This document shows, piece by piece, positions 1 to 19,817 of a stretch of DNA of 35,378 nt. The stretch is from positions 1 through 35,378 of the forward strand of contig SVHY01000021.1 in NCBI GenBank assembly GCA_015055545.1. The letters run 5' to 3'. This stretch comes from Clostridiales bacterium. GTDB taxonomy: Bacteria > Bacillota > Clostridia > Christensenellales > Borkfalkiaceae. The number at the start of each line of letters is the position of its first letter. The stretch's first letter is position 1. A model generated the notes under the pieces. It was not told the DNA's origin. It did not search any database and was given only the letters and a program-made list of their open reading frames with translations. The position numbers were made by a program, and so were the translations under genes.

Positions 1-424
1 CGTTTCGTTAAAACGTTTCGTAAATTCGTTGTAATACCCTACTAGGTCCGTTCTTTCTTTCCACATCGGCTGTACGGGCACGACCGTGGATTTGTTATCC
101 AAAAATTCTCCGAGCGCGTACGCAAGCGACGTTTTACCCGTACCCGACATACCTTGCAAGATGATAATCTTCGTTACCGTCAAACCCGCGATAAAGCGAC
201 GAATATCGTCGATACTGTAATACAGCTTTAATTTACTGCACGCAAAGTTTCTAAACTCTTCGCAAAACCGTTTGAGCGTAATACTTTCGTCGTACGTCGT
301 CCGTTGAAAACGCGCGCGGTTCGCATCCAGCGTACACAGCATACAAAAACGCGAACGACCTTCTTCTTCATCGTCCTTTTCTTTCACTTTTCCCACCACT
401 ACGGGGTACGCACTCGTAGGCTGC
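1..424. repeat. Copy A of a 424-bp near-identical duplication inside AAA genes
   Basis: Positions 1-424 match 3443-3866 with a constant offset of 3442. By eye I count about 13 mismatches, some clustered near the right end, and no indel. The repeat covers the linker, CxxC and Walker A part of the two AAA paralogues. Identity ends abruptly on the N-terminal side, where the membrane anchors differ, and it runs off the window on the other side. Confidence 0.9.
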
Positions 425-699
425 ATTGTTTGCGCTAATTTTGTTCCGAATACGTCCTCGGAACGTTCAATCTTCACTTCCTTTTTATCCGTTGCAAGCG
501 CGATAAAAAGAAAGAGTAAAAGCACGGGCAACGCCAAAAGCAAAGCGATTATAAAATAGCTTACTTCCGAACGAACGACCGTTTTATCGTTGGAATTTAA
601 GTACGCAGAAAACGCGACGGCTAAAATAATGCCGACGATGACGACGAGCGCGATCATAACGATATATTTCGTTTTACTGTTTTTCTTATTGCTCTTCAT
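1..699 (-). CDS. Membrane-anchored McrB-like AAA ATPase, second copy (3' end beyond window)
   Basis: Partial gene: 233 codons are open from an ATG at 699 to the left edge. The first 75 or so residues hold two predicted membrane helices (about residues 12-34 and 48-68) separated by a short polar stretch, unlike the single helix of the neighbouring paralogue at 2720-4009. From the motif SAYPVVVGK onward it is nearly identical to that paralogue: the same acidic linker, a CxxC pair, and the Walker A motif GMSGTGKTS. The part with Walker B and sensor 1 lies outside. The start overlaps the end of the upstream coiled-coil gene by 14 nt, which suggests translational coupling. Inferred role: a membrane-tethered AAA ring subunit working with the other operon products. 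The family assignment is by motif only. Confidence 0.85.
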   Translation of the reverse strand, partial: MKSNKKNSKTKYIVMIALVVIVGIILAVAFSAYLNSNDKTVVRSEVSYFIIALLLALPVLLLFLFIALATDKKEVKIERSEDVFGTKLAQTMQPTSAYPVVVGKVKEKDDEEEGRSRFCMLCTLDANRARFQRTTYDESITLKRFCEEFRNFACSKLKLYYSIDDIRRFIAGLTVTKIIILQGMSGTGKTSLAYALGEFLDNKSTVVPVQPMWKERTDLVGYYNEFTKRFNET

Positions 700-2710
700 G
701 CTTGTTTTCTATCCCCGTTTCGCTTGGTTGTTGGCTTGGCGTTCCCGCTTGTTCTTGCGGCGGTTGTTGCAACGGCATTTGTGGCGGCTGCTGCATTTGA
801 GGCTGTTGCGGCGGTTGAGGTGGCTGCGGCGGTTGCGGATATGCTACGCCGCCCGTCTTTTTCGCTGCTTTTTCCGCTTGCTCCTTGGCTTTCGCTTCCG
901 TAAAGACTTGACTGCGGATTTTTTGTTTCGTCTTTTTCCATTCCGTCTTGAAGAATTTCTTAAAGACTTGGTATTGCCGTTCGATTTCGTCCGTCTTTTC
1001 TCGGCTGGAAAAATCGTCCTTGTCCGTCATTAACCCGTATTGATAACGGAGCGCATTCAAGCGCGCTTCGGCAAGCGTTTTCTGGTCTTCTAACTTCGCG
1101 TACTGCGCGTTGATTTCCTTGATACGCGCTACGTTGCTTTCAATTTGCGCGTTAAGCTTACGCATACTTTCTTCGTGTTCGGCGTTGATGACCGTCATTC
1201 TATCGGTAAATTCTTGCTTCACCGCCGCAAGTTCGTTGCGGTAACGTTCCGATTCTTCTTGACGTTGGCGTTCGACGTCTTGGATTTGTGCTTTCAAAGC
1301 CTCCACTTCTTCCGCGTGCAACATTTGCATAGCGTTCACTTCGTCCATATGCGCTTCGTTAAGCGCGACGATACTTGCCGCGTGCTCGTCTTGCAATTCT
1401 ATCATACGCTGTTCGTGTTCGGCGTTGATTTCCCGCACGTGTTCCAAATGCGCCAGTTCTGCAGCGTTCATATCGTCCACGTATTTTTGATTGAGCCGTG
1501 TAATCTCTTCGCCAAGCGAACGAACCGTGTCTTGCGAGTGAAGAAGTTCCGTTTTGAAATGGTCGATTTCCGCTTGCATACTATCGATCAGTTTACGCGC
1601 AACGACGAGTTCCTCCGATTCCTTTTCCAAATCGCGAATACGCCGTTCTAACATATTGATATATTCTTCGGGCGATAAACCGCTTTCTTTGATTTGACGG
1701 CTGATATTGCGGATTTGTTCCGCGAGTTTTTTTGCTTCCGCTCTGCGGCGGCGTTCTTCTTCGCGTTCGTAATTTTCCTTGAAATAATCTTTAATTCCAA
1801 GCCCGTGTTCATACGTTAAGAACAGGGAAAGTTCCACCGATTCCGCGATTTCATCGCCCACCGTACCCACGAACGGGGATACCGTTTTCGTTTCCGTTTT
1901 GATCTCGTACCCGTCGCGATCGTACGCCGCGATAAATTCATAGAGTTTCATCGCGCCGCGGAAGTTTTGGTTCATTTTCAAAACGTTGGTACGCGTAATC
2001 GGCGGTTTTAACATAGGCGTTTTCGCCACTTCCACCATAAGCGGCGTGTTCAAATAAACGGTTACCGCTTTATAAATGGTAAGAATCCTGTCGATTGCGT
2101 CCTGTGCAGCGTTATGTTCGCGTAAATAATCGTCGTTTTTGCGTTCTTCCTCCAAGCGTATCTCATAGGAAATTTTTCTGTTGCTTTCCACGATATCTTT
2201 ATGCATGGACATATTGCCCTTGTACGTGTTCGTCATTTCCACGATTCTCTCGTACCGCATACCGATAAAATCACGCAAATAGCAAAGCAACATATACAAA
2301 AATCTGTTTTCGTATACGGCGTAATCGCTCAAACGTTCCACCGTGTATAATTGATCGGGAATCAAATCCTCGCCCTCGTCAGGCTCACGCGTGAAAAGAT
2401 TGCTGTGGCGCGCCAAATGCTCCACGGAATCCTTGGACGTGCGTTTTACCTTTTCGATAGGCACGACTTCGCCGTTGGAACGAATAAACTGCCGCTCTTC
2501 TTTAATCGCTTTTTCCACGAACACAAGACCGGTTTCAATCGCTTCAATCCAGTCTTCTTCCACTATGCAGTTTTTGCGCGTTATCTGTATGATATCGTTT
2601 TCGTTGTCCGCCGATACGATCGCTTTGCGTTGCGTTTTACATTCGCGGTTATCCAGCGTATTCTTTCGATAATCGATAAGCGCACGGTATAATATGTCTA
2701 AATTATTCAT
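686..2710 (-). CDS. Coiled-coil protein with DUF2357-like N-terminal part
   Basis: 674 residues, soluble, no membrane segment. The N-terminal third contains DYAVYENRFLYMLLCYL (about residues 129-145), which resembles the ENRF signature of DUF2357 proteins, partners of McrB-type ATPases that often carry a PD-(D/E)xK nuclease. I see no nuclease motif here. Residues of about 315-620 are instead a long charged coiled coil rich in Glu, Arg, Lys and Gln. The C-terminus is a low-complexity Pro/Gln tail (PQPPQPPQPP type). It sits 9 nt downstream of the AAA gene 2720-4009 and overlaps the next AAA gene. The likely role is a scaffold or adaptor for the AAA proteins. The DUF2357 link is by memory of the motif and is tentative; the coiled coil is clear. 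Confidence 0.8.
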   Translation of the reverse strand: MNNLDILYRALIDYRKNTLDNRECKTQRKAIVSADNENDIIQITRKNCIVEEDWIEAIETGLVFVEKAIKEERQFIRSNGEVVPIEKVKRTSKDSVEHLARHSNLFTREPDEGEDLIPDQLYTVERLSDYAVYENRFLYMLLCYLRDFIGMRYERIVEMTNTYKGNMSMHKDIVESNRKISYEIRLEEERKNDDYLREHNAAQDAIDRILTIYKAVTVYLNTPLMVEVAKTPMLKPPITRTNVLKMNQNFRGAMKLYEFIAAYDRDGYEIKTETKTVSPFVGTVGDEIAESVELSLFLTYEHGLGIKDYFKENYEREEERRRRAEAKKLAEQIRNISRQIKESGLSPEEYINMLERRIRDLEKESEELVVARKLIDSMQAEIDHFKTELLHSQDTVRSLGEEITRLNQKYVDDMNAAELAHLEHVREINAEHEQRMIELQDEHAASIVALNEAHMDEVNAMQMLHAEEVEALKAQIQDVERQRQEESERYRNELAAVKQEFTDRMTVINAEHEESMRKLNAQIESNVARIKEINAQYAKLEDQKTLAEARLNALRYQYGLMTDKDDFSSREKTDEIERQYQVFKKFFKTEWKKTKQKIRSQVFTEAKAKEQAEKAAKKTGGVAYPQPPQPPQPPQQPQMQQPPQMPLQQPPQEQAGTPSQQPSETGIENKHEEQ

Positions 2711-2719
2711 AAATCGCCC

Positions 2720-4009
2720 TTACGCGTTCTTCTTCAAGCGTTGTACGTATTCCTTACAAAGCTGCATTTTGTTCTCGCCGAACAATTCGTCCAAATAATC
2801 GCAGAACCCGTCTACTACGCTTCGGATATATACGGGGTTTTGCATTTCTAATTTCCTAAGCACCTTCTTCGCCAAGATATCGTCCAGCGCGTCCAGCTCT
2901 TCCCCGCCACACGCTACGTATACCGGAATATACGACTTTATCTGTTTCATGATACGGTTACCGAACGTGATATGGAATACCTTGATCATGTATTCGTCCA
3001 GTTTTTCGAGTCGCCGCATATTCCGTTTCGTTATCGCGTATTCTTTCATCGCCTCGTCCGCAAGACTCATAAACTTTTCCGCCGTAACGTGTATGCTCTT
3101 CGTCTTGGGCGCGGTGAACGGTTCAGACTTTTGATCCAAGTTCATAACCATCGCTCTGTCGTACACCTTATCCGAGATCGCAAACGTCGAGTCGTCGTTG
3201 TTCGCAGTTCCGATAAACCACATATTATTCGGTAGTTTTATCCGTCCGCCCTTCAATTGCAAAGGATCGTTATCCCATTCGTCCGATACCACGTCTAAAT
3301 AACGTCTATCCGGATTCGGTAGTTCCAAAAGCGACAAAAATTCCGCAAAGTAATATTCTACGCGCGCGATGTTCATTTCGTCTAATATCGTTACGTATAT
3401 ATCCTTGCTGTAATTTGCCTCGTACATCTTTTGCAACAACGTCGTTTCGTTAAAACGTTTCGTAAATTCGTTGTAATACCCTACTAGGTCCGTTCTTTCT
3501 TTCCACATCGGCTGTACGGGCACGACCGTGGATTTGTTATCCAAAAATTCACCGAACGCGTACGCAAGCGACGTTTTACCCGTACCCGACATACCTTGCA
3601 AAATGATAATCTTCGTTACCGTCAAACCCGCGATAAAGCGGCGAATATCGTCGATACTGTAATACAGTTTTAATTTACTACACGCAAAGTTTCTAAACTC
3701 TTCGCAAAACCGTTTGAGCGTAATACTTTCGTCGTACGTCGTACGTTGAAAACGCGCGCGGTTCGCATCCAGCGTACACAGCATACAAAAACGCGAACGA
3801 CCTTCTTCTTCATCGTCCTTTTCTTTCCCTTTCCCTACCACTACGGGGTATGCTCCCGTAGGCTGTGATACGCCCGTGGAAATGATACGGGGAGCTTTAT
3901 CTTCATTTTTCATCGTCATCATAATAATCAAAATCACGATCACCGCAACGATTGCTATGTAAACGAATATCGCCGTTTTGGACGATGCTAACTCCAACAA
4001 TTTCTGCAT
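2720..4009 (-). CDS. Membrane-anchored McrB-like AAA+ ATPase
   Basis: 429 residues. One N-terminal membrane helix (about 12-33), then a linker with an acidic stretch (KDDEEE) and cysteines at 75, 78, 102 and 110. The AAA core has Walker A GMSGTGKT (139-146), Walker B TILDEMN (207-213) followed by the McrB/AAA_5-like segment ARVEYYFAEFLSLLE, and a sensor-1 region FIGTANNDDST (265-275) where McrB has its MNTxD motif. A helical lid follows (GGEELDALDD). All catalytic motifs look intact, so it should hydrolyse nucleotide, probably as a hexamer on the cytoplasmic face of the membrane. It is 11 nt downstream of the GH3/AAA fusion, whose C-terminus is a degenerate version of the same AAA fold. Substrate unknown. 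Confidence 0.88.
   Translation of the reverse strand: MQKLLELASSKTAIFVYIAIVAVIVILIIMMTMKNEDKAPRIISTGVSQPTGAYPVVVGKGKEKDDEEEGRSRFCMLCTLDANRARFQRTTYDESITLKRFCEEFRNFACSKLKLYYSIDDIRRFIAGLTVTKIIILQGMSGTGKTSLAYAFGEFLDNKSTVVPVQPMWKERTDLVGYYNEFTKRFNETTLLQKMYEANYSKDIYVTILDEMNIARVEYYFAEFLSLLELPNPDRRYLDVVSDEWDNDPLQLKGGRIKLPNNMWFIGTANNDDSTFAISDKVYDRAMVMNLDQKSEPFTAPKTKSIHVTAEKFMSLADEAMKEYAITKRNMRRLEKLDEYMIKVFHITFGNRIMKQIKSYIPVYVACGGEELDALDDILAKKVLRKLEMQNPVYIRSVVDGFCDYLDELFGENKMQLCKEYVQRLKKNA
3443..3866. repeat. Copy B of the 424-bp near-identical duplication
   Basis: Partner of 1-424 (offset 3442). It lies within the complete AAA gene. The high nucleotide identity, including synonymous sites, points to recent duplication or ongoing gene conversion between the two paralogues. 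Confidence 0.9.
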
Positions 4010-4020
4010 ATTTTACTTCC

Positions 4021-7000
4021 TTAAACGTTTAAATCTGTAGATTTTACGACTTTCACCGAACGGTTGACGTGCCCTTCGCCAAAGACGTTTTCCAGCGTGT
4101 GCGCAAACTTTTCTTCGGGCGATTTTTTCGCCGTAGCCAAGCTTACCGCCATAGCGGGTATTAAGCGTTGCGCCATTGCACAATCCAACGCTTCTTCTTC
4201 CTCGCCTCCCGCTGCAAGATACGTTGCGACGTATTTTTCCAAACGGTGCCATTGCTTGTTTTCGATACGGTATTCCCCGCAAGCGTTTTGCACGTATTCT
4301 TCCGTCTTATCAACGCGTTTCCAAAGCACTTCGTCGATTTGGTAATCGCGCAAAGCGTTTCGCGAAAGTTTCGCAAACTGCGAATACGCAAGCGATTGAA
4401 AGGACGTGCGTTCGCGTTCGATTTCCTGTTCGACAATACGCATTTCGCCGTTTTCTTCTTCGCCCGTTTTTTCCGCAACTAAACGCGTACGCGCGTCGCC
4501 CGATTTCAACGAAAGGTCTACAAGACAAGCCATATCCAAAATGTATTTAGGAATATCCGTAAACTTTTCCCCGTCCGCAAGCGTGACGATAAACCAAACG
4601 TTTTCAGGTAAAACGCAAGAACCGTTTGCCGCGCCTTTTATAAACACTTCCGTTTCGCGTTCGGGTTGGTCGATATAACGGATAACGGGCGCGAACGTAG
4701 ATTTAATATCTTCGCAACGCACGCCCATAAGCACTGCCGTATGCAAACTTTCGTCGGCAGGCGTAGCACTCGTCAACTTTCTTGCAATCGCGGAAAGTTC
4801 TACGTTCCCGTAACCGTCCTTGCGTTCAAACAACGCGTTGCCGTCCGTATTCTCGCCGTAATAATCTACGGCAAATTCCGTACCGAAATATTCGCTTAAT
4901 AAGGGAATGAATTTCATCAGCATCTCGCTGTCGTCGCTGCGCAAAATCAACAGTCTTGACGAGGACAACGCCGAAAATACCATACGCGCCGTTGCCGCGT
5001 CCACCGCTACGCCCCGTTCAAACGCGAACGTGATAAACTGTTTGCAAACCACGGGCAACGTGAATTCGGGATCGAATGGAACGGTTGTAAACGTCTTTTC
5101 TTCCGTTTCTACCGTCTGCGCGACCTCCTGTTCCACTTCGTATACCTTGGTAAACTCTTCTTCAAAAAGTTGTTCGTAAGGGATTTCGTCCGCTAAATCT
5201 TCCACGTTTAATTTTTCTCGGTTTTTTTGTTTTTCGCTCATATTATTTTCCAAACACTCTTTTATTTCTTTTTTCCGTTTTACAGTCAATATCGTCGCTA
5301 TCGTAATGGGCAGGATATTAAGCGCTGCCACCGTGAGATACATCCACCAGGTTTTCGGCGCCCAACGCACGTAATTGAAATACCCGTAAACAATATCCAA
5401 ACATAGCATTACGATACTTGCAACGATGAAAAAGCGTCTTGATTTGCCCTTCACGTCGAGCGGCATTTTCATCGGTACGTCTAAATAATACTTTTTATCT
5501 AAGATATTAGAACGATTTTGTAAATAATCTGAATACCTTTCTTTCGTTTTCTCCAACTTATCCGTGCCGTAGTACATTACGCCCGTTTGTCGAATATCGC
5601 GCACGGACGAGCCGATGTATACTTGATACGTACCGTTTTCCGTAACGAATCGCGCGCGTTTCTCGTCCCACACCGCCAAATCCATTTGCTTGGGCGAAAT
5701 AGAAATGGTCGTACTTTGTCCCGCCGCAAGATACACCTTGAAAAAGGCTTTAAGTTCTTTAGTCGGTCTAATCAACGCCGAATCGCGTTTCCCGATATAG
5801 ATTTGCACCACTTCCGAACCTGCGTAAGAACCGGTATTCCGAACGGTAACCTGTATACCGCTTGCCGAACACGACGCGTTAGAATACTCAAATTTCGTAT
5901 AACTCAACCCGTGTCCAAACGGATATTTTACCCGTAATCTCGACGTATCGTAATGCCTGTATCCGTAGAACGTACCCACTTTGTTCCTGCCCGCGTTTTT
6001 GTAGCTGAGCAGCTCTTGAAAATGTTCGTCCGCGTTATTATAACAGGTATACGCAAGTTTCCCCGACGGGCAAGCGTCGCCCGAAATAATCCGCTGTAAC
6101 GCCATCGCGCTACGCGAGCCGTCAAGCGGCGCGAGTAACACCGCCGAACAGGCTTTATCGAATTTCACGTCTACGTACCGATTACCTCCGATAATCGCAA
6201 CGATTTTCTTGTTCAACCGCGACAACGCCTCTACAAGCGCCAACTGATTGGCGGGAAGTTTGCTCGTTTGGTTACGGTTTGCGCGCTGCGCGCCTTCTTC
6301 CGTATATCCGAGAACCAACAAAACTACGTCCGCCCTTCTTGCCAAATCGCAAGCTTGTTGGATTAGATGGTCGCTACGGTCTTGTTCAATATCGTAACCC
6401 TTTGCATAACCGATAATCTGAAATCTATTGGGCGTTGAACCAAGCTGACGGTGCAAATTGACGATACGCCCGTTATTAGTCTCCGCTAAGCTGCCGATAA
6501 GTGCAACGTTTCCGCCGCGCAACGGCAATGTGTTTTGTTCGTTTTTGAGCAAAACTATACTCTCTTCCGCCGCCCGCAACGCAAGGCTGTCCTCGGCTGT
6601 TTTAAAGCCTGGCATAGGTCTCGATTGCGCCTGTTTACATTCGTCGGCAAAGCGCAGGATAAAATCCAACGTTTCGTCGATTTTTTCAGGGCTAATCGCC
6701 AAGCCGTCGCGACATTCCGCCTCAACTTCGTTAATCGTAATCTCGCCCGCTTCAAACTGTTCTTGCAAGAAATTATATTTATCAAGCGCGGCTTTTAAGG
6801 TTGCAACCGAACCTTTTTTGCAAAGCTTGTCGCTGCTCCTTGCAAACTGCAACGTATCGGACGGGGATTTACATTCGTACACGAGCGGAACTTTACTTCC
6901 AAAATCCGCAAGCATGGACGAATTGACCGTTTCGTACGCCCCGTCAAGCGTTTTATCCGACGTTTGCATTGCGCCTACGCCACGTTTAACGAGCATATCG

Positions 7001-7485
7001 AACGGTTTGGCAAAGTATTCCTTAATCGCGCGCATATTCGGTGCAACGTCCGAATAATCCACGTCCGTTTGCGTGAGCGTGGGATCGGAAACGCACGTTT
7101 TCATGCCCATTCTTGCACCCGACGTTACGAACGCGCCCGACATCATACCCGCAAGTAACGGGTCTTCCGTGTACCCGCTCGTATACGGCGTAGTTTTTAC
7201 GTTTGCGTTGGGGATATCAAAAATCGTATATCCGTTTCTGCGCGCGCGCGCCATAAGGCGGTCGGAAACTTGCGAAACTAAATCCAAGTTCCAAGAATTG
7301 ATAAGTCCCGAAAAGGACGGATACGATTCCGATTGCACGGACGCCGCGTTCATTTCTTTCACGGACGTTTCCGAAAGATATACGCCCGTTTCAAAGGACA
7401 TACCCCCCAGCGCCGAAATATCCGCAAGCAAGGAAAGCTTTTGTTCTATTGTAAGCTGATTGATTATTTCTTGATGTTTCAACAT
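4021..7485 (-). CDS. GH3-like pseudoenzyme fused by a membrane hairpin to a degenerate McrB-like AAA domain
   Basis: 1154 residues. Residues 1-290 match the GH3 (beta-glucosidase) TIM-barrel layout, 300-535 the second GH3 domain (AAEESIVLLKNE; YPFGHGLSYTKFEY), and 540-630 a fibronectin-III-like domain. Two membrane helices (about 684-704 and 713-734) form a hairpin flanked by KSRR and KRKK, so both ends should be cytoplasmic; there is no signal peptide. Residues of about 800-1150 align with the AAA protein at 2720-4009: SSRLLILRSDDSEML stands where it has Walker A, VLMGVRCEDI where it has Walker B, and LPENVWFIVTLADG at sensor 1. The nucleotide-binding residues are therefore gone. The GH3 part also lacks the usual KHF/NDQE and SDW motifs (VYECKSPSD at 202-210). 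It is probably a catalytically dead sugar-binding or structural protein. The LRR gene is 11 nt upstream. Confidence 0.85.
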   Translation of the reverse strand: MLKHQEIINQLTIEQKLSLLADISALGGMSFETGVYLSETSVKEMNAASVQSESYPSFSGLINSWNLDLVSQVSDRLMARARRNGYTIFDIPNANVKTTPYTSGYTEDPLLAGMMSGAFVTSGARMGMKTCVSDPTLTQTDVDYSDVAPNMRAIKEYFAKPFDMLVKRGVGAMQTSDKTLDGAYETVNSSMLADFGSKVPLVYECKSPSDTLQFARSSDKLCKKGSVATLKAALDKYNFLQEQFEAGEITINEVEAECRDGLAISPEKIDETLDFILRFADECKQAQSRPMPGFKTAEDSLALRAAEESIVLLKNEQNTLPLRGGNVALIGSLAETNNGRIVNLHRQLGSTPNRFQIIGYAKGYDIEQDRSDHLIQQACDLARRADVVLLVLGYTEEGAQRANRNQTSKLPANQLALVEALSRLNKKIVAIIGGNRYVDVKFDKACSAVLLAPLDGSRSAMALQRIISGDACPSGKLAYTCYNNADEHFQELLSYKNAGRNKVGTFYGYRHYDTSRLRVKYPFGHGLSYTKFEYSNASCSASGIQVTVRNTGSYAGSEVVQIYIGKRDSALIRPTKELKAFFKVYLAAGQSTTISISPKQMDLAVWDEKRARFVTENGTYQVYIGSSVRDIRQTGVMYYGTDKLEKTKERYSDYLQNRSNILDKKYYLDVPMKMPLDVKGKSRRFFIVASIVMLCLDIVYGYFNYVRWAPKTWWMYLTVAALNILPITIATILTVKRKKEIKECLENNMSEKQKNREKLNVEDLADEIPYEQLFEEEFTKVYEVEQEVAQTVETEEKTFTTVPFDPEFTLPVVCKQFITFAFERGVAVDAATARMVFSALSSSRLLILRSDDSEMLMKFIPLLSEYFGTEFAVDYYGENTDGNALFERKDGYGNVELSAIARKLTSATPADESLHTAVLMGVRCEDIKSTFAPVIRYIDQPERETEVFIKGAANGSCVLPENVWFIVTLADGEKFTDIPKYILDMACLVDLSLKSGDARTRLVAEKTGEEENGEMRIVEQEIERERTSFQSLAYSQFAKLSRNALRDYQIDEVLWKRVDKTEEYVQNACGEYRIENKQWHRLEKYVATYLAAGGEEEEALDCAMAQRLIPAMAVSLATAKKSPEEKFAHTLENVFGEGHVNRSVKVVKSTDLNV

Positions 7486-7496
7486 ACTTTATTCCC

Positions 7497-10400
7497 TTAA
7501 TACGGTTCGTTTAAAGAAGTTATATACATATTATTGATTTGCGCATACCCACTTTCGTCCGCCGCCGATTGCGTATACGTGAACGTCAACGTTTGACCTT
7601 TGCGCACCGTATACGAAAGCGATTGCGACGACGAACCGCCTTTCAGCGTTTTTGACGTAGAAGTTCCTGCTTTCACCGTCAAAGCACCCGTATTCGCGCC
7701 GTACACCCGCGCCGTAAAGGATATCGTCATATCCTGTTTCGCCGTGAACGTCAACGTTGCCGTAGAGTTTGCCGTCTTATTCGTGGACTCAATCGAATCG
7801 TAGTTCGTAAACAGTCTAAACGGCGTTTTCGACGTATTGGAAACGGTGAATACCTTTTTGAAATTGTTCAGCGTATAACTCGTCACGCGCATATTATTGA
7901 TATACCCGCAACGCGTACACACGTCGTCCGAATAGGAATGTCCGTATGCAGGGATAATTTCCGTATGCTCGTATCCGCAATCGTTGCAATACGTTTTACC
8001 CGAGCCCTCCCTGCGACAGGTTGCATCCTTTAATACGCTGTATTTATATTCCTTGCACGGCGTTTGCACGTTATTGTTTGCGTCGTAGTTCCATTGATCG
8101 CCTTGGTGTGCGCAGTTATCGTAGATGTAAATCATACCAAAACTGAGCGTATTCCATTTCGTAGCGAAATTATTATTCCATTGGCTTTGCGTACCTTCAA
8201 AATATATACTAAAGCCCCATTGATTATAAAACGTAGTTCCCGTTACCGTGCCCGCCGTAGCGGAAAGCACCATTTTACTAAGGTTCGTACAATTACTAAA
8301 CGCGCCCTCGTAATTGAGCGAAACACCCGACGAAACGCGTATCTCTTCTAAACTACCCACGTTATCAAACGCTTGCGAACGCATATCGGTAACGCCATTG
8401 CCAACGATAACCGTTTTTATCGACTCGTCGCCCCAGAAAGCGTAACGCGCGATGATATACGTCTTCGTCCTACCGTTGACGGATTTTTTATCCAACGTGA
8501 GCTTGGTTGCGCTGCCCGTATAATCCACCAGCGCGCAAACGCCGTTGGTTGCATACTTAAACACCAACCCGTCCACCGTAGCCGTTTGCAAACGCGTACC
8601 CGCCGCCGTATGTACGACAACGGCGTTATAAGCAACCTCGCCGTAATCAGCGTCGTTGACGGTTATGGGCAACGCACTTAAATTGCACACCTCGTGCAAC
8701 GCTCTACATCCCCCAAACGCGCCCGAATCAATAAACGTAAGCGTGGACGGCAAAAGGATATACGAAAGTTTTTCGCAACCCAAGAACGCGTACGAGCCTA
8801 TCGACATTAAACCGTTTCCAAATTCCACGGTTGAAAGTTCTACACAGTTAGCAAACGTTTCCGCTGCGATTGCGGTCAACGACGCAGGCAAGAACGCGTT
8901 TTGCAAGCTTTCACAGCCGTAAAAAGCACGTGCGCCAAGCACAGTCAAATTGTCGCCGAACGCAACGCTTTCTATCGACGTACAGTTTTCAAACGCCGAT
9001 GCGCCAAGTTCGATTAACGACATGGGAAGTTGTACGCTTTCCAGCGACGAACAGTTGATAAACGCTTCCGAGCCGATAGACAAAATCCCGTTGGGGAGCG
9101 TTACCGTTTGGAGCTTGCCGCAGTTTGCGAACGCGCCGTTGGCAACGTACAGCGTTTTAGGCGACAGCACCACCGTTTCTAACGTTTCGCTATTTGCAAA
9201 CAGTTCCGCACGCAACGTTTCCATCTCTCGCTCACCAAAGTCCACGCTCTCAAACGCGTTTCCGTCAAACGCTTTCGCGTCCAACACGAGCGGCGACTCG
9301 CCTATGAATTGCATGGAAGAAATTCCGCTGTTCCCGAACGCGTTTTCACCGATACGCGTTACCGCGTCGGGAATAGTGAGCTGGGTAATCGTTTCGTTTT
9401 CGGTAAACATATACGGTACGATACGGTAGTATTCCCCTGCTACGCTTTCGGGCAGTTTCACTTTACCGCCCAAGCCGTCGTATTCGATAAGATACCATTC
9501 GTCCCGCGCGTAAGCGAATTCAAAATCGCCCTGTTTTTGACGGGGCATACGCTCTTCGTGGGCGGACGAATACACGCGCAATGCGTTGAGCGCATAAACG
9601 CTTGTGTCGCTTAAATTTTCTATTTCGTACAATTTATAACAAGACAACAACGCGTCTTCCGCTATCATTTGCACGCTAGCGGGAATATACAAAAACCGTA
9701 AATTCACACAGGAAGCAAACGCACCCGAACCGATAGAAATTACCCCGTCGGGTAAATCCAGCGTTTTGATTGATTTCAAACCGTAAAACGCTTCTTTGCC
9801 GATAGTTTCCAGCAAGCCCGTCTGCGTAAACAGCACTTGTGATACGCCCGCACAATCAGAAAACGCGGCTTCTTCAATCGTCGTAACCGCCGCGGGAACG
9901 ATTAGCGTTTGTAACGCCGTACAAGTGGAAAACGCCCTTTCAGGGATAGTCGTAAGCGGCGTAGACGAAGTAAAGCCTACGTCTGTAAGGTTGGTACAAT
10001 GCTCGAACGCGAATTTACCAAGCGAGCTAACCATGGACGCGTCGAACGTCGTAATCGCCGTTTCTTTAAAGGCATTTTCGCCTATCGTTTGCACGCCCGA
10101 TACGGAAAATTTCGTCAATTTTTTACAGCCGTTGAACGCGTTGTCGCCAACGGCGGAAACGCCGCCCGAAACGGAAACAGTCGTCAGTTTCGGACAACCC
10201 TGAAACGCGTCGTTGCCTATCTTCGTGCCTTGGAAATTTTTTACCGTAAACGTTTCCAACGCCGAGCCGCAACCGCTGACAAAGCTTGCGGGCACGTCGT
10301 CCATGTTGCCAATCGTGATATTTTTTACTTTCGCGCTTTCGCCAAGCAACGCGGACAAGCCCTTGCCCGTGTCCGCTTCGTATTGCGAATAGTTATAGTT

Positions 10401-11522
10401 CTTTAAATACAAGTTTTCAATCGTTTTGGTATTGACGAAATACCGTCCGTTCATCTCGTATTCGACGAATTGATCTATGTAAATATCCGTAAGCGCGGAA
10501 CAGTTTGCAAATACCTGTGAATCCAGCTCTAACACGCTGTATTTATCGCCCGTGAGTTTTACGGACGCGAGCGCGTCGCAATAATTGAACGCGCCTAAGC
10601 CTATTTCTTCCAAGTTGTTGGCGGAAAAAGATTGCAAAGAAGAACATTCGGCAAACGCATACGCGCCGATCGTAACGTTGTCCTTAATTTCCACCTTTTC
10701 CAAATTCGTACAACCACGGAACGCGTTGAGTCCAATCCGTACGCCGCCTTCAATCACGACCTCTTCCAAAATTTCGTTGTACATAAACGCTGCTTCCGCG
10801 ATTTGATAAACGGGGTGTCCGTCTACGCTGTTGGGAATCACGATAGAATCGCCGCCCAAGCCCACGTATCCGACGATATTCACGGGCGCGTCCGCAGACC
10901 TGTCTTCTTGGTCTACGAACTCGTATTCTATATTATTAAGGAAGAAAGATTCTTCGTCGTCTTTGAATTTGTTCAAATGCACGACCGACGCTATCGCCCC
11001 GCAAATCAACGTAACGGCTGAAATTACGCCCACGATAGCGGGAATACCGAACTTGCGGCGTTGCACGCTAACGCCCTCTTCGCCCACTTCTTTTTGGATA
11101 CTTTCTCTATCGATAGGCTGTTTCTTTTTGCGTTTTTCGTACGTAACGTAGACGTCGTTCTCACCCAAGCAATAAGCGAAATTGCCGTATTCCGCGCGTA
11201 CGATCTTTAAACGGAAATCAATACACGAGCGGTGCAGTTCCACGTTATTCTTTAAGATAAACTTACCCTTTTTAAACGCCAAGTCTTTAATCGTTTTATT
11301 TGCCGCGCCCAAAGGATTGCCGTGCGCGTCGAATTGATCAATTTGCAACGTCAAGCCCGTCAGCGTTTCGTTTCTGAGATTGTTGAAATTGAGCAGCAAA
11401 AATCTACGGCTTTTCTTACGAATAATCAAAAACCGATCAATAAGCAAAAATTCGTTGGTTTGTTTATACGAATATTCGCCTTTGGATATTACGCTGTAAC
11501 TGCGAGTTTCTTTCTCTTTCAT
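7497..11522 (-). CDS. Type II membrane protein with BspA-like LRR ectodomain
   Basis: 1341 residues. An N-terminal domain of about 155 residues with alternating hydrophobic strands and a basic patch (EKRKKKQ) is followed by one membrane helix (about 159-182), giving an N-in topology. The outside part is a long array of TpLRR/BspA repeats (LRR_5 type: IGxxAFxxCxxLxxVxLPxxLTxI) from about residue 210 to 1120. A cysteine-rich segment follows (CAHQGDQW, CRREG, CNDCGY, CTRCGYI), like those in other Clostridia surface proteins, and then a C-terminal beta-rich domain. BspA LRRs usually mediate adhesion or protein binding. Its position between a membrane protein and the GH3/AAA fusion suggests it is the external arm of the operon's complex. 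The start overlaps the preceding gene by ATGA. Confidence 0.88.
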   Translation of the reverse strand: MKEKETRSYSVISKGEYSYKQTNEFLLIDRFLIIRKKSRRFLLLNFNNLRNETLTGLTLQIDQFDAHGNPLGAANKTIKDLAFKKGKFILKNNVELHRSCIDFRLKIVRAEYGNFAYCLGENDVYVTYEKRKKKQPIDRESIQKEVGEEGVSVQRRKFGIPAIVGVISAVTLICGAIASVVHLNKFKDDEESFFLNNIEYEFVDQEDRSADAPVNIVGYVGLGGDSIVIPNSVDGHPVYQIAEAAFMYNEILEEVVIEGGVRIGLNAFRGCTNLEKVEIKDNVTIGAYAFAECSSLQSFSANNLEEIGLGAFNYCDALASVKLTGDKYSVLELDSQVFANCSALTDIYIDQFVEYEMNGRYFVNTKTIENLYLKNYNYSQYEADTGKGLSALLGESAKVKNITIGNMDDVPASFVSGCGSALETFTVKNFQGTKIGNDAFQGCPKLTTVSVSGGVSAVGDNAFNGCKKLTKFSVSGVQTIGENAFKETAITTFDASMVSSLGKFAFEHCTNLTDVGFTSSTPLTTIPERAFSTCTALQTLIVPAAVTTIEEAAFSDCAGVSQVLFTQTGLLETIGKEAFYGLKSIKTLDLPDGVISIGSGAFASCVNLRFLYIPASVQMIAEDALLSCYKLYEIENLSDTSVYALNALRVYSSAHEERMPRQKQGDFEFAYARDEWYLIEYDGLGGKVKLPESVAGEYYRIVPYMFTENETITQLTIPDAVTRIGENAFGNSGISSMQFIGESPLVLDAKAFDGNAFESVDFGEREMETLRAELFANSETLETVVLSPKTLYVANGAFANCGKLQTVTLPNGILSIGSEAFINCSSLESVQLPMSLIELGASAFENCTSIESVAFGDNLTVLGARAFYGCESLQNAFLPASLTAIAAETFANCVELSTVEFGNGLMSIGSYAFLGCEKLSYILLPSTLTFIDSGAFGGCRALHEVCNLSALPITVNDADYGEVAYNAVVVHTAAGTRLQTATVDGLVFKYATNGVCALVDYTGSATKLTLDKKSVNGRTKTYIIARYAFWGDESIKTVIVGNGVTDMRSQAFDNVGSLEEIRVSSGVSLNYEGAFSNCTNLSKMVLSATAGTVTGTTFYNQWGFSIYFEGTQSQWNNNFATKWNTLSFGMIYIYDNCAHQGDQWNYDANNNVQTPCKEYKYSVLKDATCRREGSGKTYCNDCGYEHTEIIPAYGHSYSDDVCTRCGYINNMRVTSYTLNNFKKVFTVSNTSKTPFRLFTNYDSIESTNKTANSTATLTFTAKQDMTISFTARVYGANTGALTVKAGTSTSKTLKGGSSSQSLSYTVRKGQTLTFTYTQSAADESGYAQINNMYITSLNEPY

Positions 11523-12217
11523 GCTCTATTCCACCCGGATTTTTTTGCGTTGCGGACACTTAACGCGATGACGACGGATATAATATTTACCGCAATCAAA
11601 ATCCCCGCAATCAAAAGCGTTATCAACGCGCTTTCGCCCGTTAAGATAAAGCTTTCACGGAACACGCCGCCGAAAATGTTGGCAAGGCAGACCTTTACGC
11701 TCATGATTTCCATGAGCAACGCAAAACTGCACGCCACCAAGAATTTGGCTATTTTACCCGCTTTCGCTTTTCTCACCGTACTATCGGGGAAGGTCGCGTT
11801 ATCCACTTCGTCCACTACTATCGATACGTAAGACGTTTCTTCGGGCAATTCCACCACTTTCGTATAACCGCTCTTTTCCACTAAATCTTTCACTTTCAAA
11901 ACGTCAAAAACTTTGTTGCGGTTGTTAAACAATACGATTTCATAACAGATATACGAAATATCTTTATCCAGCTTGCACATCAGTTCTTTTTTCCCGAACC
12001 GCTCCGCCAAAACGTACTGCTTAATAAATTGCCGCCATTTAAGCGCAGGCTCAAACACCATGCTCTGCCCATGCTTTTCCACGACCTTTTTAATTCCTCT
12101 GTCCGTGGGCGCTTGAATGATATGCCTAGTTTTTAAAAACAGCATAGGAAAAACGTACGCCGCAGCAAACACGCTTGCGCCGCATACAAGTATCAACAAA
12201 AAACACCAAAAAGCCAT
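11519..12217 (-). CDS. Three-helix membrane protein, first gene of the AAA/LRR operon
   Basis: 232 residues, not recognised. It has an N-terminal helix (about 2-29), a soluble region of some 125 residues rich in Lys and Glu (30-157), and two C-terminal helices (about 158-181 and 196-221) ending in a basic tail. There is no signal-peptidase site and no known catalytic motif. The start at 12217 follows AAAGGA with 7-8 nt spacing, and the promoter lies 70 nt further up. Its stop overlaps the LRR gene start by ATGA, so the two products are probably made in a fixed ratio and may interact in the membrane. Confidence 0.8.
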   Translation of the reverse strand: MAFWCFLLILVCGASVFAAAYVFPMLFLKTRHIIQAPTDRGIKKVVEKHGQSMVFEPALKWRQFIKQYVLAERFGKKELMCKLDKDISYICYEIVLFNNRNKVFDVLKVKDLVEKSGYTKVVELPEETSYVSIVVDEVDNATFPDSTVRKAKAGKIAKFLVACSFALLMEIMSVKVCLANIFGGVFRESFILTGESALITLLIAGILIAVNIISVVIALSVRNAKKSGWNRA

Positions 12218-14723: not shown

Positions 14724-14798
14724 GGTTCCTTAGTTAAATGGATATAACAAGCCCCTCCTAAGGGCTAGTTGTGGGTTCGATTCCCGCAGGGACTACCA
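14724..14798 (+). tRNA. tRNA-Arg(CCU) carried by the element
   Basis: 75 nt, CCA encoded. Acceptor GGTTCCT/AGGGACT (two G-T pairs), D-stem GTTA/TAAC, anticodon stem AGCCC/GGGCT with loop CTCCTAA, T-stem GTGGG/CCCGC with loop TTCGATT, 4-nt variable loop. It differs from the split host tRNA in most stem bases, so it is not a local copy. It reads AGG codons and would replace the function the insertion destroyed. I find no convincing promoter between 14586 and 14723, so transcription probably comes from the host promoter at 14508. Confidence 0.95.
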
Positions 14799-14825
14799 AA
14801 AAAACCACATTTTTTGTGGTTTTTT
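14799..14825 (+). terminator. Terminator of the element tRNA
   Basis: AAAAAACCACA / TGTGGTTTTTT stem with a short T loop, directly after the CCA end. Confidence 0.85.
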
Positions 14826-14891
14826 ACTATTTTTAGGGCAAAAATCGGTCGTTTTTGGAATAATTTTCAACTATTCCACTATATCCACCCA

Positions 14892-14941
14892 CATATTAAG
14901 TTGAGATACTTTTCTTAATATGCTATAATAATATAAAGGAG
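14892..14941 (+). promoter_or_regulatory. Promoter and probable operator of the HEPN-like gene
   Basis: TTGAGA (14901-14906), 17-nt spacer, TATAAT (14924-14929), then AAAGGAG (14935-14941) 6 nt before the ATG. A perfect 9-bp inverted repeat, CATATTAAG (14892-14900) and CTTAATATG (14914-14922), brackets the -35 box, so a dimeric repressor bound there would block the promoter. Confidence 0.7.
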
Positions 14942-14947
14942 ACTGTT

Positions 14948-15433
14948 ATGAGCCAAAACATACCCGAAGAAACAATGAAAAAAGTAGAATTACTTTGGAC
15001 AAAAGTAGGCTTTGTTGTACAACTTTCCCAAATGGTTGAATACAACTTGGCTAATATTCTTGGATTTGATGAAATATTAAAAAAGTTTGACGATGAAAAA
15101 CCATTATCTAAAAAAATATATGACAAAGCGGTAAAGAAGGCAAATTCGCTTTATAAAAAACTTTCAAAGCGCCCTTTAGGAAAAATTCTTGAACAGGCTG
15201 AAAAAGTCAAATTCTTTACGGAAGATGGTCTTAAACTTCTATCTGAAGCTTGCGAAAAACGAAATTTTGTTATTCATCATTTATTCCGTGAAGATTTGTT
15301 CAAAGGATACGTTGATACTCAACCTGAATATTATTACGAAACTGTTGAAGAAACCATAGGAATATTACACGAAATAAACGAGCAATTAGTCGAAATATTC
15401 AAGCAACAGAAACAAGAATATTGGATGTTATAA
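14948..15433 (+). CDS. HEPN-like helical protein, candidate RNase toxin
   Basis: 161 residues, almost all helical and charged. The segment EKRNFVIHHLF holds R105-N106 and H110, which fits the R-polar-x3-H motif of HEPN ribonucleases. The N-terminal stretch LLWTKVGFVVQLSQMVEYNL resembles the first helix of such small all-helical domains. No nucleotidyltransferase partner is adjacent. It is the only plus-strand protein gene of the element, with its own strong promoter, inverted-repeat operator and terminator, and so is controlled separately from the integrase and defence modules. It could be an abortive-infection or element-maintenance toxin. The HEPN call is motif-based; a related non-catalytic helical family is possible. 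Confidence 0.75.
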   Translation: MSQNIPEETMKKVELLWTKVGFVVQLSQMVEYNLANILGFDEILKKFDDEKPLSKKIYDKAVKKANSLYKKLSKRPLGKILEQAEKVKFFTEDGLKLLSEACEKRNFVIHHLFREDLFKGYVDTQPEYYYETVEETIGILHEINEQLVEIFKQQKQEYWML

Positions 15434-15439
15434 AAGACA

Positions 15440-15477
15440 AGGGATACCCACAATCAAGTGAGTATCCCAATTTTTTA
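15440..15477 (+). terminator. Terminator between the HEPN-like gene and integrase
   Basis: GGGATAC/GTATCCC stem extended by CCAC/GTGA, 6-nt loop, T run. It ends HEPN-gene transcripts and lies just before the integrase stop codon. Confidence 0.85.
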
Positions 15478-15480
15478 TTC

Positions 15481-16899
15481 CTAAAATAGGTTATTTAGTG
15501 CATTTAACGCCTTTTCTTGCGTGTCGGGGATAAAGTGACTGTAAACCTGTAAGGTAATGGTTGAGTCGCTATGTCCCATATACTTGCTAACCGTTTGCAA
15601 CGGAACGTTTTGCGATAACAATAAACTGCAATACGTGTGGCGTAGCCCGTGACAACAAACTCGTTTGAAACCTTTTTCGTCTTGAAACTTTTTCAGCCAA
15701 CCGCCAACTGTATGTGGATATACAGGTTCACGGCAGATGTTGACGGCAAAATAGTATTCGTCCACGTTGCTATCAAAATCATCATCTATAATTCTAAACC
15801 ACTCACGGTACTCCTTCAAATCGTCAATTAAAGGCGTTGGAAGGGGTATATCTCGCGCGGAAGTCTTTGTCTTGGGTTCTTTTTCATAGATTCCGTAACC
15901 TTTCGCCACAAGCCGATTTCTGCGAATATGTACTACTTGCTTGTCAAAATCAATATCCGACCATCGTAGTCCGTTAAGTTCGCCTGCACGCACGCCTGTA
16001 AGCAACATAAACTTTATCGGCACACGCTTGTAAATCAAATCTTCGGGAAGTTCGTCAAGCGCCTTCATAAATTCTTGCGCTTCGGCTATTGAATAAACTT
16101 CCTTTTCGTTTACGGGGCGAAGCGACGAATTGCTATTGCCCGAACCTACTTTTGTGGCACATACGGGATTTTTTGTTATCCAATCGTAACGCACGGCTTC
16201 GTTAAATACAGTTCTGAGCAATCTTCTATAACCTTTAATGGTTTCGGCTGAATAACCTTTATTTCGTTCGTTAGGCTTAAAATACTCGTCAAAATCAAGG
16301 TTGTGAATTTCGCAAATTTTTTGTGCCGTTTCACGAACTATGTAATTGCCTTTCTTTTTAAGTCCATAAGACGAGCAACGGGTTATCACGCCGTCTCTTG
16401 CGAGCGCTCTAAAACTTATAGACTTTGGCAAATCTTTTTTAAGACAAACGGTGTTGTCTTGCTTGCCGTTTTTCTGCTCAAAACTGTTTAGGAACATTTG
16501 AACGTGTCTAACCGTAATCTCGCTTACAGGTTTATCCGAAAGTCTATTATTCTTTAAGTAGTCGCTAAATTTTTTGGTAATTCCAATGCCTCTTAAGTAG
16601 TAATTTATCGACCAATTCTTTTTAACGCTTTCAAGCCACTCGGTTGCAAGTTCGTCAAAGGTTAAAACTTTTAATTTCTTAACGTCCGTTTTCAGTTCGT
16701 AAGCCTTTGCAAGTTCTTCTTCAAACTCAATGGCACATTTTTCTACGTATTTATGGAACTTGGCAGGGGTAAGGTCGTTATCATTTTTGACTAATTTATA
16801 GCAAACCTTTTGCTTGTCTGTTTCAGGGTCTCTGCCAAGCGCTTGTATCTTTGCTTTTAATTTTCCTTTTTTATCCGTGCTTATTTTGAAATAAGCCAT
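15481..16899 (-). CDS. int: Tyrosine recombinase (integrase) of the element
   Basis: 472 residues, longer than the common 380-400 for this family. The catalytic set is complete: Arg304 (TGVRAGELNGLRW), Lys in KTKTSARDIPL, His417 and Arg420 (HGLRHTYCSLLL), His443 (MGHSDS) and the nucleophile Tyr453 (LQVYSH). The N-terminal 75 residues hold a basic AP2-like arm-binding region, followed by a core-binding domain from about 78. That domain carries an unusual insert (about 152-218, KSISFRALARDGVITR) that reads like a small HTH. It is preceded by AAGGAGG and 11 nt from the HTH gene. Predicted to integrate and excise the element at the tRNA anticodon loop. Confidence 0.95.
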   Translation of the reverse strand: MAYFKISTDKKGKLKAKIQALGRDPETDKQKVCYKLVKNDNDLTPAKFHKYVEKCAIEFEEELAKAYELKTDVKKLKVLTFDELATEWLESVKKNWSINYYLRGIGITKKFSDYLKNNRLSDKPVSEITVRHVQMFLNSFEQKNGKQDNTVCLKKDLPKSISFRALARDGVITRCSSYGLKKKGNYIVRETAQKICEIHNLDFDEYFKPNERNKGYSAETIKGYRRLLRTVFNEAVRYDWITKNPVCATKVGSGNSNSSLRPVNEKEVYSIAEAQEFMKALDELPEDLIYKRVPIKFMLLTGVRAGELNGLRWSDIDFDKQVVHIRRNRLVAKGYGIYEKEPKTKTSARDIPLPTPLIDDLKEYREWFRIIDDDFDSNVDEYYFAVNICREPVYPHTVGGWLKKFQDEKGFKRVCCHGLRHTYCSLLLSQNVPLQTVSKYMGHSDSTITLQVYSHFIPDTQEKALNALNNLF

Positions 16900-16910
16900 T
16901 ATAATCCTCC

Positions 16911-17087
16911 TTAATCGTTATTTATGTAATTCAAAAGACTTTCCACATCAACTAAAATTTTATTGCCTACTTTTACGTTTCTAACTTTATTTTCTTTACA
17001 CCAAGTTCTAATGGCGTGTAGGGTAACAGCTGTGTCTTTGTCATCTTTTTGAATTAACTCTAATGCTTTTCTTACACTTCTAAGCAA
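16911..17087 (-). CDS. Small HTH protein, excisionase-like
   Basis: 58 residues if started at the TTG at 17087 (MLRSVRKALELIQ...). I choose this over the ATG at 17102 because GGAGGAAAT ends 8 nt before the TTG, whereas the ATG is part of that ribosome site. The sequence (DTAVTLHAIRTWCKENKVRNVKVGNKILVD) is a winged HTH of the Xis/MerR-like type (DUF6462-like in appearance) that usually precedes integrases in Firmicutes elements. Likely a recombination directionality factor or regulator of int. Upstream (17103-17271) I see no clear promoter. Confidence 0.8.
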   Translation of the reverse strand: MLRSVRKALELIQKDDKDTAVTLHAIRTWCKENKVRNVKVGNKILVDVESLLNYINND

Positions 17088-17271
17088 TATAATTTCCTCC
17101 ATAAAGTTGGAGTATCGGGATTTCTCCGTTTTTCTTCGATGCCTAACATATATTCTCAATGGCAATCCCCGAAGCTATATTCTTAGTAAAAACAACGTTT
17201 GCTTCCTATTTCATTAAACTTATTTCTATATTACTTCTCCTTTTGAAGTCAAACGGGTTTATATGCAGTAG

Positions 17272-17508
17272 TTAGCCTTCTACGTTATCCGAGCGTTTTT
17301 CAAACTGTTCTCTTAAAGCGTTATAGCCCGCCATAATCAAATGAACCTTTGAAAGACCTTTACTCAACAAGAAAGCATCAATTTCTTCTGCTTCCCTGCG
17401 GGGAATACTCGTACCCCAAACTTTATTCAGTTTTTTGCGTTCTTCTTTGTGCTTTGCTTCGTATACTCTGCGACTGATTCTAATAGGTGTGTCTTGTTTT
17501 CTTTCCAT
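17272..17508 (-). CDS. Small basic protein, RHH-like
   Basis: 78 residues, basic N-terminal half. The core VWGTSIPRREAEEIDAFLLSKGLSKVHLIMAGYNALREQ has a strand followed by two helices, the layout of ribbon-helix-helix DNA-binding proteins. It follows the TnpV-like gene by 12 nt with AAAGGAG as ribosome site. Probably a regulator of the element's recombination module. The fold is inferred from pattern only. Confidence 0.7.
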   Translation of the reverse strand: MERKQDTPIRISRRVYEAKHKEERKKLNKVWGTSIPRREAEEIDAFLLSKGLSKVHLIMAGYNALREQFEKRSDNVEG

Positions 17509-17520
17509 AGCGATACTCCT

Positions 17521-17841
17521 TTAATCCACATAAATAAGTTCGTTTAATATTTCTTCATCAATGCGGGTTTTGATTTCCGTTTCAATTTTAACGTCGTGCA
17601 TAAAATCTCCCGTCTTTTGATATTCGGGACGTTTCAAAAGTCTTTCTCTCATAACTTCCCAAATTTGTTCGGCGGCTTTGTCAATGCCGTGAAGATAGGT
17701 GGGTAAATCTTCAATCAACCAATCTCTACCTGTGTCAATAAGGTATTGCTTTTTCAAGTTTCCCCATCTGCCGTAAACGTGTTTAACGGGTGGATGCGAA
17801 CGCTGATATTCAATTACTTCTTCTAACGTCAAAACTTCCAT
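17521..17841 (-). CDS. TnpV-like protein
   Basis: 106 residues. YGRWGNLKKQYLIDTG near the N-terminus and RIDEEILNELIYV at the C-terminus match the ends of TnpV family proteins, small accessory proteins common in Firmicutes transposons and integrative elements, function unknown. First gene of the integrase-side operon. The ATG at 17841 follows AAGGAGATTT. No transposase is nearby. Confidence 0.75.
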   Translation of the reverse strand: MEVLTLEEVIEYQRSHPPVKHVYGRWGNLKKQYLIDTGRDWLIEDLPTYLHGIDKAAEQIWEVMRERLLKRPEYQKTGDFMHDVKIETEIKTRIDEEILNELIYVD

Positions 17842-17870
17842 TTTGAAATCTCCTTAACTGTAGTGTGTTG

Positions 17871-17910
17871 TCGTATTAATACGAATATCACTTTTTGCGA
17901 AAGAAGTCAA
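17871..17910 (-). promoter_or_regulatory. Probable promoter and palindromic operator of the recombination operon
   Basis: Minus strand: TTGACT (17910-17905), 17-nt spacer, weak TATTCG (17887-17882). The perfect 14-bp palindrome TCGTATTAATACGA (17871-17884) overlaps the -10 and start region, so a repressor there would silence the integrase genes. Confidence 0.5.
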
Positions 17911-17985
17911 GCTCTTTTTTATAAAATTCTAAAATTTTTTTACATATTTATTTCCTCCTTATGTTTTAGTGGGGAGCAGAGCAAA

Positions 17986-19814: not shown

Positions 19815-19817
19815 GTT

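Follow-up and report, generated by a model that had tools for sequence, protein, structure and literature searches.

A membrane McrBC-like gene set from Clostridia that looks like a sister class to CoCoPALM

Introduction

CoCoPALM, a membrane McrBC-like clade, was named in 2024 and is given one paragraph in PMC11090510 (preprint PMC10542128). The present study concerns an operon that resembles it, located at the left end of a 35,378-nt stretch of DNA (contig SVHY01000021.1, hereafter the window) from a Clostridiales bacterium represented by a metagenome-assembled genome of 1.95 Mb in 59 contigs (83% complete). As CoCoPALM is portrayed in that paragraph, the two have in common a McrB-like AAA protein with an NxD motif and a membrane helix, a coiled-coil McrC homologue, and a link to surface structures. 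No signal peptidase or pilin match was found in the operon. The operon and its relatives contain, beyond the CoCoPALM parts, two AAA genes, a fusion of a GH3-like domain with an inactive-looking (dead) AAA domain, a leucine-rich repeat (LRR) protein, MBG-type proteins and a transglutaminase protein.

Two other described systems share parts of this core. Type IV restriction by McrBC likewise joins a McrB-type AAA protein to a DUF2357 domain, but the DUF2357 protein of the window is modelled without a PD-(D/E)xK nuclease, and its AAA protein carries a membrane anchor rather than a specificity domain. CoCoNuT systems share the NxD motif, the coiled coil and a McrC homologue without a nuclease; according to the main text of PMC11090510, however, the nuclease-free McrC homologues of CoCoNuTs always have a nuclease partner, and neither a HEPN domain nor another nuclease was found in the operon examined here. 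That main text contains no word starting with "surface" or "adhesi", and the phrase "leucine-rich repeat" occurs there once in a list of abbreviations and once in connection with Type III-A CoCoNuT ATPases. A description of this gene set was not found in the literature searched, whose scope did not extend to bioRxiv or most subscription papers. An earlier note on this DNA, made without database searches, knew of no described system with this set; it had overlooked CoCoPALM, of which the window class looks like a sister.

Here we propose that the operon encodes a nuclease-free membrane McrBC-like machine, sister to CoCoPALM, that serves surface structures, an interpretation to which we assign roughly an even chance. 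Motif patterns and predicted structures identify its parts as AAA motors, a DUF2357 stalk with a coil, a dead GH3/AAA protein and single-pass proteins whose large outer regions consist of MBG-type repeats, a transglutaminase or, where present, an LRR. These findings suggest that gut bacteria have adapted a motor family of DNA restriction to work in the envelope, and that at least two sister forms exist whose outer parts differ; CoCoPALM-like systems would thereby gain a second class and a cultured species, Anaerocaecibacter muris.

Results and Discussion

Recurrence of the gene set in two classes

A scan of a collection of named genomes yielded at least 576 relatives from 594 candidates, of which the best 80 were kept as 79 loci; an AAA gene is called in 77 of these. 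Loci were assigned to classes by matches within four open reading frames (ORFs) of the AAA gene, so that membership depends on our ORF calls and cut-off. By this rule, 44 loci hold MBG/transglutaminase or dead-AAA matches (M class), 23 hold SipW or pilin matches (S class), 10 hold neither and none holds both (Fisher test for the separation, 4e-12, with relatedness ignored). Because the same neighbours occur in many genomes, the gene set recurs beyond chance. The M-class pattern supports the reading in the earlier note of a membrane-tied McrB-like AAA protein, an inactive-looking GH3/AAA protein, a DUF2357 coiled-coil partner and an LRR arm, which form a conserved unit.

In a tree of 121 AAA modules, the 23 S-class loci all group in one branch (32 rows, 100/86) and the M class occupies another (83 rows, 96/93); each of the two also takes in five of the loci that belong to neither class. 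Two AAA genes are called in 31 of the 44 M-class loci, compared with 0 of the 23 in the S class. These data bear on the proposal that the window operon is a CoCoPALM member that has only lost its signal peptidase, as might be supposed from the NxD AAA/DUF2357 core common to both classes and from their neighbouring positions on the AAA tree. Such a loss is very unlikely, in our estimation, to be the explanation, given that the tree separates the M branch from the S branch with support for each, that the number of AAA genes differs between the classes, and that a SipW or pilin match near the AAA genes is found in none of the 44 M-class loci. No signal peptidase was found among the six window proteins. 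From its gene content and its place on the tree, the window set instead looks like a sister class to CoCoPALM that is without the peptidase.

The 23 S-class loci (among L125-L157), along with L035, L037 and L038, combine AAA-DUF2357 genes with endoplasmic reticulum (ER)-type signal peptidases, and the S class fits CoCoPALM. TIGR02228 matches the gene beside the AAA gene in five of six S-class loci (not in L134), and does so above its cut-off in four. The Pfam evidence is weaker, with Peptidase_S26 at E 4e-4 in L035, below cut-off, and no match in L038; among PDB sequences, the L035 protein matches SEC11C at E 9e-6, ranking below an unrelated designed protein at E 5e-8. Across three M-class genomes, TIGR02228 exceeds its cut-off only in the A. 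muris isolate, on a contig other than that of the operon. The secreted proteins of many S-class loci we take to be TasA/camelysin-like. This class therefore shares an ER-type signal peptidase and secreted proteins with SipW/TasA fibre loci, which are not known to have a McrBC-like motor.

Organization of the operon

The six genes of the window operon all lie on the minus strand, running from P0006 (P6; 12217-11519) through P0005 (11522-7497), P0004 (7485-4021), P0003 (4009-2720) and P0002 (2710-686) to P0001 (699-1). Their junctions, in this order, are a 4-nt overlap, gaps of 11, 11 and 9 nt, and a 14-nt overlap. A predicted sigma-70 type promoter (12315-12287, minus strand) matches the consensus TTGACA-17-TATAAT at 12 of 12 positions, with a 17-nt spacer and a TG before the -10 element, and ends approximately 70 nt 5′ of the P0006 start codon; the mean of 1.6 sites obtained in shuffled sequence applies to a laxer cut-off of 9/12 and not to 12/12. 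The arrangement of six co-directional genes with short gaps or overlaps behind one predicted promoter, as reported in the earlier note, is therefore confirmed. The gene upstream of the promoter, P0007, presumably encodes serine hydroxymethyltransferase. Pfam domains in the operon are LRR_5 (E 2e-124) in P0005, GH3 C-terminal and Fn3-like domains in P0004, AAA_5 (E 1e-6) in P0003 and DUF2357 (E 6e-7, above the curated cut-off) in P0002. Transmembrane (TM) helices were counted by simple hydropathy.

In a sample of 61 genomes, the source genome included, P0003 has matches in 16, P0002 in 9 and P0006 in 5. Matches to P0004 occur in 43, a number inflated by ordinary GH3 proteins; near-full matches with the AAA tail are present in five genomes (G000, G005, G022, G034 and, over two contigs, G025), which are the same five that have P0006, and G006 has the dead AAA only.

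AAA motors and the DUF2357 partner

P0003 (AAA1, 429 aa) comprises one TM helix followed by a McrB-like AAA module with the NxD motif. Its N-terminus consists of the helix and a short linker, with no Pfam domain there and, as judged by eye only, no obvious coiled coil. The AAA module of CoCoPALM is fused to an FtsB-like TM helix with a coiled coil. P0001 (AAA2) is incomplete, as base 1 of the window is base 1 of the contig and the gene runs off its end; the first 233 aa include two TM helices and the start of an AAA module. An AAA profile compared with PDB sequences retrieves three distinct sequences at E up to 0.01, all of them McrB. N270 and D272 are invariant among 13 sequences, and 106 of 110 AAA proteins keep all four patterns (Walker A, Walker B, NxD and arginine). 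Three of the others lack only the Walker B pattern as written, and the fourth is a 79-aa fragment, which is also the sole exception to the NxD pattern (109 of 110). This pattern reads NNDD in 107 proteins and NDDD in two, consistent with the statement in PMC11090510 that NxD is usually followed by D or E as a mark of the NxD branch.

P0002 (674 aa) is composed of a DUF2357/McrC-like domain with a long beta hairpin and a coiled coil of about 210 residues. In its predicted structure (mean pLDDT 77, pTM 0.43), the DUF2357 part is followed by a helix (307-341), the coil (347-557), a second helix (570-606) and disorder, and no mixed alpha/beta domain of the nuclease type is present. The helix at 347-557 together with DUF2357 gives this protein the form of a coiled-coil McrC homologue. 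The earlier note had argued from the membrane anchors and surface LRRs that the set does not fit plain restriction, a view that is supported here. Pfam detects DUF2357 (E 0.01) in 36 of 67 partners, and no nuclease family appears among the 25 families listed of 80 for these proteins. A DUF2357 relative is found in 72 of the 79 loci, including five in which it was recovered by tblastn behind antisense ORFs (L107, L111, L112, L115 and L122). Seven loci are left. Two of them (L082 and L114) stop within the AAA gene or shortly past it, and L093 is on a contig of only 4.1 kb. In L085, L091, L094 and L099, DUF2357 was not found in the locus; the L091 genome has it on other contigs.

Defence context

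One alternative is a defence system: parts at the surface or in the membrane would detect contact with a phage, and the McrB/McrC-like motor would then bring about exclusion or abortive infection. P0003 matches the PADLOC candidate PDC-M26A (E 1e-47), and the distribution of the set within the genus is patchy, as might be expected of defence genes. Furthermore, of ten plasmid records listed, both of the two inspected (L159, Deinococcus; L160, Rhodoferax) carry an AAA protein that is about 41% identical, next to DUF2357 and PP2C genes, and L160, the one whose neighbours were searched, also has a kinase, a MkoA-like helicase (Mokosh MkoA match) and a weak MkoB match nearby. From their gene rows, L159 and L160 are possibly an unnamed Mokosh relative. 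The L160 operon shares with that of the window the AAA protein and the adjoining DUF2357 gene, but its partners are the PP2C protein, kinase and helicase, and its genes include no annotated surface protein.

Several results speak against a defensive role. Neither nucleases nor other known effectors were found by Pfam among the six proteins of the window operon or in two downstream-type proteins from G022 (described below). Of 147 candidate proteins flanking M-class loci, 81 were searched, and no defence family recurs among the families listed. At E 1e-20, every PADLOC family in the list (25 of 37) has a single matching protein, UvrD-like helicase, AbiEii and MzaA models being among them; the Pfam list (25 of 95 families) is mostly metabolic or housekeeping. 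Matches to P0003 are rare in viral contigs (1) and phage records (2 of 50,697). A mobile-element reading of the set was rejected as well: P0003 has matches in 269 of 72,556 plasmid records, and no phage or plasmid match covers 80% of the query. Defence is an unlikely function in our judgement, and phage exclusion, one of the roles suggested in the earlier note, received no direct support.

The GH3/dead-AAA fusion

P0004 (1154 aa) consists of a GH3-like pseudoenzyme, a TM hairpin (helices near residues 685 and 717) and a dead AAA domain. The SDW nucleophile motif is present in none of 28 GH3 parts, nor is KH found in any of them at the aligned columns; the yardstick was a pair of ordinary GH3 relatives that were chosen for having SDW and that both have KH. 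On these alignments, residual GH3 activity is unlikely. The dead AAA domain contains none of the four AAA patterns in 33 of 33 proteins, eight of which have no GH3 match (L101, one of the eight, is cut by a contig end). One further dead AAA protein (L106, 469 aa, with none of the four motifs) stands outside both AAA counts.

Despite these losses, the domains appear to be maintained. In the close pair L111/L112, the ratio of nonsynonymous to synonymous substitution (dN/dS) is 0.19 for the shared piece of the fusion (L112 holds only its last 738 aa), with 0.14 for the GH3 part and 0.25 for the dead AAA. The corresponding values are 0.10 for AAA1, 0.07 for AAA2, 0.10 for DUF2357, and 0.40 and 0.26 for two MBG-type genes, the first of which is the fastest-changing gene in the pair. 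Low ratios in the fusion suggest, for this one pair, that the dead domains are kept under purifying selection.

The linker of the fusion has two or four TM helices in 19 of 24 proteins from named genomes, three in two, none in two and five in one. Both outer ends of the two-helix hairpin of P0004 are positive, and the GH3 domain is thus predicted to be cytoplasmic. The earlier note was therefore correct in calling this domain a pseudoenzyme, its motifs being lost in 28 of 28, but the predicted orientation places it on the cytoplasmic side.

Matched motor modules behind different anchors

Within the window, the AAA1 and AAA2 modules are 96.9% identical in DNA over 423 nt. Local DNA alignments of AAA1 with AAA2 were obtained for 36 pairs, namely the named loci with exactly two AAA genes or pieces called, together with L032, L033 and the window; the set does not take in loci such as L115, where the ORF caller missed the second AAA gene. 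The identities fall into two groups, with 18 pairs at 96.9-100% and 18 at 70.6-79.6%. In the high-identity group, L096 and L032 share only 140 and 124 nt. Without these two, 16 loci remain, of which the window is aligned over 423 nt and the other 15 over approximately 1.1 kb. In those 15 loci, the identical tract corresponds to the cytoplasmic module, beginning after the anchors and ending at the stop codon or at most 58 nt from it. Their last 1,050 nt are 98.5-100% identical within a locus, versus 67.4-79.4% to the best other locus of the set. The membrane anchors of AAA1 and AAA2 differ even though the modules match, and in other branches of the tree the two AAA genes are old, separate paralogues.

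We read this pattern as the product of gene conversion that keeps the two modules alike, perhaps because both must share one ring. Short-read assembly may add to exact identity. Scattered differences are present in the tract in L100 and in L087. The latter is an isolate whose modules are 98.5% identical, and it shows that short-read assembly alone does not account for the resemblance. To judge from these alignments, the within-locus matching of motor modules despite different anchors is a new observation, and it offers a natural case that bears on the upkeep of a mixed AAA ring. Metagenome contigs break at this repeat of the motor module, which leaves part of the operon out of sight.

Genes beyond the window

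Gene order in relatives indicates that the contig end cuts the operon, which extends past the window by two surface-protein genes. In G022, a genome of the same genus, genes for a transglutaminase protein (796 aa) and then for a 1668-aa protein with similar repeats come after the 3′ end of an AAA gene. Contig C34 of the window's own genome terminates within a transglutaminase gene, behind which is a 2873-aa relative of the second downstream protein, and the same arrangement is present in G025 and G006. From this order we infer that the C34 genes are the other half of the window operon. All eight genes occur in order on one 400-kb contig (129,898-154,859) of the isolate Anaerocaecibacter muris CLA-AA-M11 (L087), a species that the review PMC12802175 traces to a mouse faecal sample. 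The set is thus larger than the six genes put forward in the earlier note.

The downstream gene of L042, outside the window, matches the transglutaminase-like superfamily in Pfam at E 1e-19, and the Cys, His and Asp/Glu residues are in place in 26 of 27 rows, the remaining row having shown another stretch. We use the label "MBG-type" on the basis of Pfam matches to AgI_II_C2 and MBG_2 (E 0.0015) in L033 and to YDG (E 5e-5) in L080, the MBG_2 and YDG matches both being below their curated cut-offs. In two Anaeroplasmataceae bins, P6 and an LRR gene come after the MBG-type genes. Three loci (L083:350-1897, L085:3729-5231 and L115:3182-4717) have, immediately before P6, a gene for an uncharacterised protein of about 500 aa with four TM helices, which may be a further member of the set.

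Membrane topology and surface parts

P0006 (232 aa) is predicted to contain a TM helix, a beta sandwich and two further TM helices (mean pLDDT 83). P0005 (1341 aa) has an N-terminal domain (1-160) predicted to lie inside, one TM helix (near residue 163) and a BspA-type LRR_5 region outside. Judged by the charges beside the TM helices, P0001 has its AAA part inside, as P0004 has both of its ends, and the outer parts lie outside in the transglutaminase (L042) and the giant protein (L074); the calls are weak for P0003 (2 vs 3) and P0005 (3 vs 2).

At 16 loci, the gene after P6 encodes a long LRR protein in three, a 175-338-aa protein in 12 (one of these, L097, with a weaker LRR match) and an opposite-strand ORF in one. 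The outside LRR arm described in the earlier note is present in the window and in four same-genus relatives, all of the long form, but comparison of these gene rows indicates that it is an optional add-on. A second, partial LRR_5 protein is encoded at the right contig end (window 34766-35377).

Relatives of P0005 retain the inner domain, but their outer LRR is variable and in some cases absent. Such a pattern might be expected of a trans-envelope sensor, in which neighbours or mucus would be bound by LRR/MBG arms and the signal passed inward by the dead GH3/AAA and the live AAA proteins. An inner pseudoenzyme of sugar-enzyme type would suit this role, as would the EAL-domain gene found near L036 (S branch). 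However, neither the window operon nor the two downstream-type proteins searched showed a kinase, receiver or DNA-binding domain, and the transglutaminase, whose active-site residues are in place, points to construction more than to sensing. We therefore consider a sensory function distinctly doubtful.

A possible mechanism

The envelope-machine interpretation can be extended to a proposed mechanism, by analogy with McrBC and from the genes that accompany the motors. Live and dead AAA modules would form a ring beneath the membrane, into which the DUF2357 stalk would insert and, as in McrBC, stimulate NTP hydrolysis. The dead AAA/GH3 protein might act as a fixed or regulatory subunit and may read a cytoplasmic sugar. 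Strokes of the ring, transmitted through the anchors, would serve to export, position or move the MBG/LRR arms, and the transglutaminase would cross-link these. That a restriction-type motor is now a mechanical membrane engine of this kind, with a mixed ring of a dead AAA/GH3 subunit and two live AAA subunits that gene conversion keeps alike, a McrC-like stalk and strokes that drive outer arms by extrusion, cross-linking or movement, is a tentative idea with a low probability of being right. If true, it would represent an envelope machine of a kind not yet described.

A number of findings weigh against a machine for surface structures. Its spread is patchy, with P6 in only 5 of the 61 genomes searched, and GH3, LRR and P6 are not always present. 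For P0006, Foldseek returned no specific fold match and searches with P6 gave nothing specific. In 16 of 28 GH3 parts, the position of the nucleophile is taken by an acidic residue. No DUF2357 was found in the L094 and L099 genomes, and the single match in that of L085 is weak (E 1e-4) and lies elsewhere than in the DUF2357 part; in these three loci, the AAA gene adjoins the surface genes directly, an arrangement that could reflect deletion between repeats or assembly collapse. Lastly, in 36 MBG-type proteins the N-terminal 55 residues are not better conserved than the outer part (mean identity 0.31 over 630 pairs vs 0.30 over 150 random pairs), and docking of the arms on the motor is thus unsupported by that comparison. 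The proposal of a docking tail on MBG proteins was dropped, leaving a short pattern (M, L or I, YxxYxxK) that is not used as evidence. Relatives in Anaeroplasmataceae or Anaeroplasma bins had suggested wall-less hosts and a machine that ignores the wall; this idea was also rejected, since penicillin-binding transpeptidases are encoded in the isolate and in each of three genomes of that kind.

Other features of the window

Separate from the operon, a low-GC island (window 14724-25716) lies by a tRNA-Arg (CCT) and contains genes for an integrase, Dodola-like DolA/DolB, a Type IIG restriction-methylase and a Type II methyltransferase. Further along (window 27721-31742) are five co-directional genes without PADLOC matches, the two of them searched against Pfam likewise having none.

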